Source: Desulfonatronospira thiodismutans ASO3-1
GTDB lineage: Bacteria; Desulfobacterota; Desulfovibrionia; Desulfovibrionales; Desulfonatronovibrionaceae
Assembly (NCBI RefSeq): GCF_000174435.1
Contig: NZ_ACJN02000003.1
Location: 760,263-824,262 of the forward strand
Direction of reading: 5' to 3'
DNA length: 64,000 bases
Position numbers and translations under genes: made by a program. Shown here piece by piece: positions 7,853-33,159 of the stretch. The notes below the pieces were generated by a model. It searched no databases, had not been told where the DNA came from, and saw nothing but the letters and a program-made list of their open reading frames with translations. Positions within the stretch are counted from its first letter, which is position 1; each line of letters starts with the position of its first letter.

Positions 7853-8344
7853 ATGAAATTTTCCAGAATCACTTCATTTGTAATATCAGTCCTGGCCTTG
7901 ATGGCTTTTTCAAACCCCCTTCATGCCGCAGAAGAAAAAGTCTGGTGGGAAGACGCCGAAAAAAAGGCTGAAGAACAAGGCTACAGGCTCATAGACACAT
8001 CAGAACTGCACAGGCTCTACAAAGAAGAAGCGGAGATGACAGTTATCGACAACCGCTATGAATACGAATTCAAGCATTCAACCATCCTTCCAGGTGCAGT
8101 AAACGTCCCTTTCCGGCCCGCTGAACGCAGCAGCCTGGATTCAGGTAAAAAAGAACAGCTCATAAGCGCCACGGGCGAAGACAAGGAGCGCAGAATCATA
8201 TTTTACTGCCGCAGCTTCAGGTGAGTGCAGAGCGGCATTGCGGCCAGGTGGGCCGTTCGTCTTGGATATGAAAACATATACCGCTACAAGGCAGGCATCA
8301 TGGCCTGGGAGGAAAAGTATCCGGAGATGGTGGAGACCCCATGA
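7853..8344 (+). CDS. Selenocysteine-containing periplasmic rhodanese (in-frame TGA at 8222)
   Basis: A 163-residue single-domain sulfurtransferase if the TGA at 8222-8224 is read as Sec. A signal peptide (residues 1-26, ending HAA) precedes a rhodanese fold: IDNRYEYEF, then the active-site loop FYCRSFR-U-VQSG, with catalytic Cys119 and Sec124. After the TGA the typical ending resumes (AARWAVRLGYENIYRYKAG, then W) and stops at 8344, overlapping the next ATG. Stopping at 8224 would delete the last helix and strand of the fold. In Cys homologues of this exported family the loop is FYC-x4-C-x2-S, so Sec stands at the second Cys. A SECIS-like hairpin follows at 8240. It presumably moves sulfane sulfur released by the adjacent molybdoenzyme. 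The start at 7853 is chosen for its signal peptide; the ribosome site is weak. Confidence 0.92.
8240..8256 (+). promoter_or_regulatory. Bacterial SECIS hairpin of the first Sec-rhodanese
   Basis: GCGGCC pairs with GGCCGT (five Watson-Crick pairs plus one G-U) around the five-base loop AGGUG. The stem begins 16 bases and the loop 22 bases after the UGA. A GG in the second and third loop positions is shared with the SECIS-like elements at 10320 and 32564 and resembles the E. coli fdhF loop. Confidence 0.85.
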
Positions 8345-9902: not shown

Positions 9903-10817
9903 ATGTACCAAAGGCTCCAAAAACTGGCCCTGCCCGGGCTTATCCTTGCGCTGGCTCTTTTTCTTGCAGCCGGCTGCGTCAAGGATGAACCCAGGCATGT
10001 CGCCGGGTATGAACCCGGAGAACCCATCCCCACTGTTGAAGTGGAAACAGATGTCCCCAATCCCTTTCACACCTTCGTAGGCATTGATTTTGTCAAACCC
10101 ATTGTAGCAGACAATGTGCTCAGGGAAGAACCCCGGGATGACGTCATGCTCATTGATGCCCGGCCCAAGCGCCCCCGTTTTGACCGTGGTCACATTCCTA
10201 CCGCCGTGAGTCTGCCTGACGGTGAATTTGAAGAAAAAGCTGAAGATGTCCTTCCCGAGGACAAGTCAACCCTTCTCATTTTCTACTGCATGAACCCTGC
10301 CTGACGTCTCAGCCACGACTCCGCCTGGAAGGCGGAAGAAATGGGATACGAAAATGTAGTAGTTTTCCCGGAAGGTGATGAGCACTGGGCTGACCAGGGT
10401 TACAAGCTGTGGACCATCGAAGACATTACAGAGCCTGATGAAGCCGAAGTGGCTGAAGCTGAAGAAGCGGCCGAGCCTTCGGACATTAAAGAAGGGGAAT
10501 TCCCCGGATCCATAGATGAAGACTTCTTTGTGGAACTTATGGAGACTGATCCCGGCAGCATCCGCCTTATTGATGTAAGAGACGAGGACGAATTCAGCCG
10601 CGGCCATCTGCCCCAGGCCGAGCGCATGAATGTGGATGAAATCCGGGCCAATATGGATGAGTTCGACGACGAAAAACCCATTGTCCTCATCTGCGCCACC
10701 GGCGCACGCAGCGGTGAAGCCTACTTCACCTTTCAGGATCAGCGCCCTGAGCTGGATGTCTACTACCTGGATGCCAACGTATCCTATGGTGAAGACGGCA
10801 GTTTTGAAATCGAATAA
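9903..10817 (+). CDS. Tandem-rhodanese lipoprotein with selenocysteine (in-frame TGA at 10302)
   Basis: A 304-residue exported protein when the TGA at 10302-10304 is read as Sec134. The lipobox LAAGC places the lipid at Cys25. Domain 1 (about 50-165) has LIDARPKRPRFDRGH and the loop FYCMNPA-U-RLSHDSA, with catalytic Cys129 five residues before Sec. The fold then continues AEEMGYENVVVF. An acidic Glu/Ala-rich linker (about 177-198) joins domain 2, with LIDVRDEDEFSRGH and the conventional loop CATGARSG (Cys264). Both halves share one frame, so conventional annotation would split this gene in two and lose the active-site junction. GGAGG at 9892 supports the start. It has its own sigma-54 promoter and lies between the Phs and YTD units, suggesting periplasmic handling of polysulfide or sulfane sulfur. 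Confidence 0.93.
10320..10336 (+). promoter_or_regulatory. Bacterial SECIS hairpin of the tandem Sec-rhodanese
   Basis: A perfect six-bp stem, UCCGCC with GGCGGA, closes a five-base loop UGGAA. Stem and loop begin 16 and 22 bases after the UGA, identical to the spacing in the first Sec-rhodanese, although the stem bases differ; this is covariation expected of a functional element. Confidence 0.87.
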
Positions 10818-32527: not shown

Positions 32528-32689
32528 CTATAACAGCCTGGAAAAAACAAAAAAAGCCAGAACTCCCGCTCCCAGCGGGATATACAGGTACAGTCACGGG
32601 GTGCAGCTCTCCCCGCCCTTCCAGGCCAGAAGCCCAAGCACAGCCCCGCCCACCAGAACAGCCAGCAACACGCTAACAGTCACAGACAT
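32528..32689 (-). CDS. Small two-helix membrane selenoprotein with C-x-x-U motif (in-frame TGA at 32596-32594)
   Basis: A 53-residue protein not visible to standard ORF calling. AAGGAGG lies nine bases before the ATG (32689). Residues 4-22 form a hydrophobic helix, then the loop WKGGESCTP-U with Cys29 and Sec32, then a second helix (LYIPLGAGVLAFFVF) and TAG at 32530-32528. Read as a stop, the TGA would leave a 31-residue single-helix peptide. Reading through adds a complete second helix and creates a redox-type CTPU motif at the membrane face. A SECIS-like hairpin follows at the right distance. The layout recalls small two-helix proteins of the DUF6132 kind with a Cys loop, but that relation is tentative. 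It is transcribed alone, bounded upstream by the terminator at 32771. Function unknown; thiol or sulfur redox at the membrane is the natural guess. Confidence 0.82.
32564..32580 (-). promoter_or_regulatory. Bacterial SECIS hairpin of the small membrane selenoprotein
   Basis: On the minus strand UCCCGC (32580-32575) pairs perfectly with GCGGGA (32569-32564) around the loop UGGGA. The stem starts 14 and the loop 20 bases after the UGA. The five-base loop with GG at positions two and three matches the two rhodanese SECIS elements. Confidence 0.82.
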
Positions 32690-32770
32690 ATATGCTCACC
32701 TCCTTGTGTTTTCAATGCATGTTCACATGCACCCTACACCCAGCCATCCAGAACATCAAACTTCGCAAAA

Positions 32771-32801
32771 AGAGGCGTGGTCCGTGGAGGACCACGCCTC
32801 T
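32771..32801. terminator. Bidirectional terminator
   Basis: AGAGGCGTGGTCC (32771-32783) pairs perfectly with GGACCACGCCTCT (32789-32801) around GTGGA, with an A run on the left and a T-rich run on the right. On the minus strand it separates the small selenoprotein from the gene at 32899. Confidence 0.88.
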
Positions 32802-32898
32802 TTCTCTCTTGTTCTGTAGCCATTCAGCCTGTCTGACTAAAAAGGAACCTGTGAATCAGGAACCCGGCAGTACGGTGCCGGCCAGGGACGCGGGATGT

Positions 32899-33159
32899 TC
32901 AGGAAACAAGGGAAAATATAAGAAACCCTGCCACCAGGACTGCCCCGATGATCCCACAGACCATAAGCAGCTTGCCCAGTTCGGGGGATTCCTCTGTCCT
33001 TGAAACTTCTACGGTTTCGCCGGTATTTTTATCCTTGAGTTGCACAGTCTGATTGTCTTCATACATCTGACGCTCGCTGTCAGACAAGTCATCAGGGATA
33101 TTCATCTGCTTGTAGTCTACCACCCTTGCATCACCATTTTCTGTTTTGTTTGAAGCCAT
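32899..33159 (-). CDS. Small protein with C-terminal membrane helix
   Basis: An 86-residue protein with an acidic polar N-terminal part (IPDDLSDSERQMYEDNQTVQL) and one C-terminal helix (LLMVCGIIGAVLVAGFLIFSL). GGAGGTTTT precedes the ATG at 33159. No family is recognised. It is followed by the terminator at 32801. Confidence 0.65.
   Translation of the reverse strand: MASNKTENGDARVVDYKQMNIPDDLSDSERQMYEDNQTVQLKDKNTGETVEVSRTEESPELGKLLMVCGIIGAVLVAGFLIFSLVS

Follow-up and report, generated by a model that had tools for sequence, protein, structure and literature searches.

A 53-residue open reading frame on the minus strand of the 64-kb window (the whole stretch of Desulfonatronospira thiodismutans DNA analysed here) almost certainly encodes a selenoprotein, judging from its sequence and that of its relatives, and we could not find its family described in the databases and literature searched. 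We consider it probable that this stand-alone gene specifies a two-helix hairpin in which a cytoplasmic C-x-P-U motif acts as a selenol/thiol redox couple at the membrane. The earlier note on this DNA had placed the gene correctly at 32528-32689 and left out its strand, which is minus; translation of that strand bears out the ribosome site, ATG, SCTP-TGA, TAG and 53 residues listed there. Translated from 32689 to 32528, with TGA taken to be Sec, the gene yields MSVTVSVLLAVLVGGAVLGLLAWKGGESCTPULYLYIPLGAGVLAFFVFSRLL. The locus comprises the following features:

32528-32689, minus strand: selenoprotein gene, 53 codons including the Sec (TGA) codon 32, stop codon TAG (from sequence and homologues)
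32594-32596, minus strand: in-frame TGA read as Sec (U32), with TGA in 62/62 aligned class homologues and 73/73 pattern-scan loci
32603-32605, minus strand: codon of Cys29, at position -3 to Sec in the C-x-P-U motif, with Cys in 111/113 distinct homologues
32618-32683, minus strand: predicted transmembrane helix 1, residues 3-24 (AlphaFold2 model and hydrophobicity)
32534-32599, minus strand: predicted transmembrane helix 2, residues 31-52, with Pro31-Sec32 first (AlphaFold2 model and conserved residues)
32563-32581, minus strand: SECIS hairpin, an 8-bp helix of nt 13-20/24-31 after the TGA (pair counts in 20 relatives)
32696-32705, minus strand: Shine-Dalgarno sequence AAGGAGGTGA (from sequence)
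32769-32803, no strand assigned: 15-bp terminator hairpin between the selenoprotein gene and the upstream minus-strand ORF 32899-33159 (from sequence)

A gap of 6 nt separates the Shine-Dalgarno sequence from the ATG. Because the terminator hairpin sets the upstream ORF apart, the selenoprotein gene forms its own transcription unit, and gene finders miss it because its internal stop codon is read as selenocysteine. The machinery for such reading is encoded in the D. thiodismutans genome, which yielded SelB (377 bits), SelA (605 bits) and tRNA-Sec (81 bits). Across the class, SelB scored above the cut-off in 284 of 348 genomes, and the TGA-bearing genomes below the cut-off are fragmented drafts.

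Read-through homologues with TGA or TGC at codon 32, which the earlier note had proposed looking for, proved plentiful in class, pattern and profile searches, all of them on the TGA side of that proposal; TGC occurs in no aligned homologue. When 348 genomes of the class were searched with a protein query carrying Cys in place of Sec, many homologues were recovered, all those above noise show TGA at the equivalent codon, and 62 Desulfovibrionales loci were aligned. A DNA pattern accepting TGA, TGC or TGT at the Sec codon, scanned once over 84,980 species genomes, returned 73 loci. These belong to the Desulfobulbales (Desulfogranum, Desulforhopalus, Desulfurivibrio, Desulfocapsa and others) and the Desulfovibrionales (Pseudodesulfovibrio, Desulfonatronum, Desulfonatronovibrio, Desulfonatronospira, Humidesulfovibrio and Salidesulfovibrio), together with a few bins labelled Desulfobacterales or Deltaproteobacteria, one Myxococcota bin and one Syntrophomonadaceae bin. 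With a profile, the gene was found in 170 of 194 Desulfobulbales genomes, including 130 of the 141 good ones (the name of this set, like the other order and genus names, being taken from the named pattern-scan loci), and each match, among the matches listed, has one TGA. A profile search of a phylum sample of 395 genomes gave the same two groups and otherwise noise only. By sequence, then, the family is large, with members in nearly all Desulfobulbales and many Desulfovibrionales.

Two loci from these searches are unusual. The member in the Syntrophomonadaceae bin (L157), which may reflect either acquisition by a Firmicute or a mistake in binning, lacks helix 1 (MDKLIQLVKNCPPUILTYVLLGAGLGVFYLIKTKIF) and has an A-type hairpin. 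At L058, around position 8300 on the plus strand (G030), a second CPPU motif follows a hydrophobic helix about 180 nt 3' of the family copy; it ends soon (ECPPUAFFFGS*) and is a tandem copy that was truncated or has decayed.

Cys29, codon 32 and the second helix, on whose conservation the earlier note had staked its reading, are retained by the relatives, both in the 62 aligned class loci (Sec 62/62, Cys(-3) 60/62, Pro(-1) 58/62 and Tyr(+4) 60/62) and in 113 distinct sequences (U 113, C(-3) 111, P(-1) 109, Y(+4) 111 and G(+10) 112), where helix 2 is marked by Y/GAG/YxLL. Two divergent extra copies in one genome (L086 and L089 in G042) keep Sec and have ISU or MSU in place of C-x-P-U, so that Cys is not strictly required everywhere; the C-terminal tail of these copies is charged (KQPDKxDETHGxKT).

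Selection on the codons provides evidence of translation on both sides of the TGA. Past the TGA and past the hairpins, codons +13 to +17 show pN/pS of 0.18-0.26; the close-pair values are 0.28 ahead of the motif, 0.16 within it and 0.18 for codons +13 to +17. Synonymous divergence in close pairs is 0.41 upstream, 0.165 in codons +5 to +12 and 0.54 downstream. Taken together, these patterns indicate that translation runs on past the TGA, and the synonymous drop in codons +5 to +12 indicates a second constraint overlapping the first part of helix 2. This constraint is the hairpin, which occurs in several architectures.

In the window, the six-base-pair hairpin with loop UGGGA that had been reported after the TGA is present as the core of the 8-bp helix: TCCCGC-TGGGA-GCGGGA begins 14 nt after the TGA, and its loop, at nt 20-24, falls within the 16-37 nt given for bacterial SECIS (PMC13188914). 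The 64-kb window was scanned for in-frame TGAs with at least 25 open codons before and at least 15 after, followed at SECIS distance by a stem of at least 6 bp with a GG loop, and the selenoprotein site was the only return, which places the hairpin above chance. Covariation of the hairpin, suggested earlier as a check, was observed as changes on both sides of pairs in four alignments. Since sequences were assigned to groups according to how they pair, the percentages paired are biased upwards and more weight falls on the double changes: 93.8% of cells are paired in the window's group (20 relatives, GGG loop), with 11 double-change cells, 0/500 shuffles as high and slid controls at 42-58%; the Pseudodesulfovibrio group (CGGCG-loop-CGCCG, nt 21-25/33-37) is 98.7% paired with 3 double-change cells; and the two registers of the Desulfobulbales are 98.0% paired with 8 and 92.2% paired with 4. 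The six sequences of the Humidesulfovibrio-type group pair fully and vary too little for covariation to be tested. Compared with synonymous recodings, hairpin MFE gave z-scores of -2 to -4 for many A-type sequences and was not significant for most others; for the window's gene z was -1.2, not unusual taken alone. The hairpin evidence comes from the family, where pair counts took the place of MFE, which counts as weak evidence. An Rfam search of the window gave no match. If the reading is right, at least four SECIS architectures laid over one conserved membrane helix offer a compact natural experiment in which an RNA signal and a protein co-evolve in shared bases.

The window also holds two rhodanese-domain genes with one in-frame TGA each, both on the plus strand. 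The first, at 8000-8314, has its TGA at 8222 (YCRSFRUVQSG), followed by a hairpin with loop AGGTG or longer, and probably encodes one of the known rhodanese forms of selenoprotein. The second, at 10134-10394, has its TGA at 10302 (FYCMNPAURLSHD) and the hairpin TCCGCC-TGGAA-GGCGGA, and a lipoprotein-like start lies in its frame, as does another rhodanese domain. The loop match that the earlier note drew between the selenoprotein hairpin and these two elements holds for the common GG and fails for the full TGGGA. Elsewhere in the same genome (G000:C1:534512-535561), a rhodanese domain with two in-frame TGAs stands beside a DsbD transmembrane domain and resembles TsoB, a listed rhodanese/DsbD fusion-like selenoprotein.

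At the locus studied here, coding conservation flanks an in-frame UGA, and a covarying hairpin with G in its loop follows at SECIS distance, in a host with SelA, SelB and tRNA-Sec, as is characteristic of bacterial selenoproteins. TGA is a stop in the standard code, and a normal stop here would give a 31-residue peptide followed by accidental conservation; given the purifying selection after the TGA, its invariance over two orders, the covarying hairpin and the Sec machinery, we regard this alternative as barely credible.

An AlphaFold2 model of moderate confidence (mean pLDDT 69, pTM 0.37) predicts that the selenoprotein folds as a hairpin of two helices, the second of which opens with Pro-Sec. 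Net charge is +2.06 in the loop, -0.24 at the N-terminus and +0.8 at the C-terminus, and this bias, under the positive-inside rule, predicts that the C-x-P-U loop lies in the cytoplasm with Sec at the inner membrane face. In thioredoxin-fold proteins the catalytic Cys occupies the first turn of a helix, and Sec in the model sits likewise.

The two candidate redox residues are conserved with CxxU spacing (111/113 and 113/113), as in thiol/selenol redox proteins, and selenoproteins are recognised to use CxxU as a redox motif (PMC13188914). The C-x-P-U motif thus suggests a membrane redox task, and we infer a cytosolic reductant and, as target, a membrane-proximal oxidant or sulfur species. In the mechanism that we propose, the hairpin just after the UGA would guide SelB to insert Sec, and the product would lie in the membrane as a hairpin of two helices, joined on the cytoplasmic side by a short loop that is positively charged and ends in C-x-P-U. 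Sec, at the N-terminal turn of helix 2 on the cytoplasmic membrane face, would be the nucleophile, kept in the selenolate form by the helix N-terminus and neighbouring K/R; the Cys three residues before it would resolve the intermediate to a selenenylsulfide, from which a thiol reductant of the cytosol, thioredoxin for example, would restore Sec. The target may be an oxidant, or a disulfide or persulfide, in or at the inner membrane of these sulfate- and sulfur-metabolising anaerobes.

The same motif could bind soft metals (Hg, Cu, Ag or a metalloid), making the protein a small metal-binding or transport hairpin like MerF/MerT or the C-P-x of P-type ATPases. Cys and Sec are ideal ligands for such metals, and mercury transport does involve small proteins of two helices that carry paired Cys. 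The listed selenoproteins include a form of MerT, the mercuric transport protein, that has Sec in a C/SxxU motif (PMC13188914). We find this reading quite unlikely: none of 64 members matched a Pfam profile of MerT, MerF or any other metal family, metal-resistance genes do not recur beside the selenoprotein gene, and the gene is near-universal in Desulfobulbales whereas resistance genes are patchy.

The absence of a Cys form argues for a step that needs the reactivity of Sec. No Cys form was found by the Cys-bearing query in 348 genomes, by the TGH pattern in 84,980 genomes or by the profile in 395 and 194 genomes. Homology-based predictors ask for a Cys-containing homologue, although having one is no part of what defines a selenoprotein, and because the family has no Cys form such predictors miss it; the authors of deep-Sep state that their method may miss selenoproteins without Cys relatives (PMC12013277). 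We lean slightly towards a broader interpretation, in which these are Sec-obligate membrane microproteins, without a Cys form in the genomes searched, that carry out a conserved redox step in which sulfur cannot replace selenium, and in one genus form a heteromer with a Sec-less paralogue. If true, they would rank with the smallest selenoproteins integral to a membrane and would clearly break the rule that a selenoprotein has relatives with Cys. The blind spot created by requiring Cys relatives, and by gene callers that drop such small ORFs, can hide a gene carried by about nine of ten good-quality Desulfobulbales genomes, and a Sec requirement fixed over two orders would permit a clean test of why sulfur cannot replace selenium at a given site.

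The genus concerned is Pseudodesulfovibrio, the only one of the class with the paralogue, where a small ORF lies 20-64 nt upstream of the selenoprotein gene in 19 loci (paralogue loci include L054, L055, L057, L059, L062 and L064). It encodes an uncharacterised two-helix membrane protein of about 62 residues that is homologous to the selenoprotein (hhalign probability 97%, E 8e-11) and differs from it in having neither Cys nor Sec and in an extra conserved C-terminal GxGRTGWP; its C-terminal end is invariant (YYILxV..GxGR.GWP; ...YYILxVxxGxGRTGWP in alignment A4). In one genome (G283) the paralogue remains and the selenoprotein gene has decayed through a further in-frame stop.

Such a homologue directly upstream fits a heteromer, and would also fit a part in some larger membrane complex (for respiration, Na+/H+ or protein-quality control), either as accessory subunit or as redox switch, with Sec as a sensor rather than an enzyme; so would the size and two-helix shape typical of accessory subunits and the glycine-rich helix faces (GxG) that suggest packing. 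We nevertheless judge such a role unlikely, since no complex adjoins the gene and Cys, which a pure sensor ought to tolerate, occurs in none of the relatives. The neighbours vary by lineage: in 35 Desulfobulbales loci the gene immediately upstream, in the same orientation, is typA, mtnA or der/dnaX recur in other lineages, mazG is convergent in Pseudodesulfovibrio, and flagellar genes stand beside the selenoprotein gene in Humidesulfovibrio and in the window. As these genes recur only inside lineages, a conserved operon partner was rejected and no functional link is drawn from them. Comparison of loci from both orders revealed no conserved neighbour besides the paralogue, so nothing in the neighbourhood points to the reductant or substrate. 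At L094 and L126 (Humidesulfovibrio type) the selenoprotein gene is immediately preceded, on its own strand, by a rubredoxin gene, in this one species only.

Searches of Pfam, NCBIfam 20.0 (June 2026) and PDB sequences agree with the earlier note, which had recognised no described family with certainty: 64 members gave no consistent match to the former two, single-member matches to COX IVB and insulin receptor TMD profiles being judged hydrophobic noise, and PDB sequences gave none. A 2026 review tabulates 119 prokaryotic selenoprotein families (PMC13188914); none is of this description, and those listed families that have a Pfam or NCBIfam model, rather than a cd or PTHR model alone, gave no consistent match to the 64 members. 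Searches of open-licence literature turned up no report of the motif or of a small membrane selenoprotein in these groups; a mention in a subscription journal is possible.

Among known systems, the CxxU selenoproteins (GrdA, SelW-like, AhpD-like, DUF1858 and the NF041239 CC/Se motif family) share the Cys-x-x-Sec motif and a SECIS after the UGA; those with NCBIfam/Pfam models do not match the present family, a membrane hairpin of 53 residues that carries C-x-P-U and for which no Cys form was found. The putative Sec form of MerT (PF02411) is likewise a small membrane selenoprotein with a C/SxxU motif, whereas the family has two helices, the motif at the start of helix 2 and no mer genes nearby. 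In the DsbD/CcdA transmembrane domain (PF02683), too, a redox residue follows a Pro where a membrane helix begins (FTPC and ATPC in L212), locally like C-T-P-U, but the protein is larger and multi-helix with two separated Cys. That the family might be a functional minimal relative of DsbD/CcdA, a shuttle moving reducing equivalents across the membrane with thioredoxin supplying both, seems very unlikely: a single redox pair on one face cannot alone pass electrons across, and homology over the catalytic Cys was not found, the weak own-genome match (tblastn E 0.14) aligning hydrophobic helices out of register and missing the motif, so that a common ancestry suggested by this match was rejected. 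Animal SelK and SelS, single-span proteins with Sec in a C-terminal tail, are unrelated to the family and resemble it in being small and membrane-bound, with Sec outside a thioredoxin fold.
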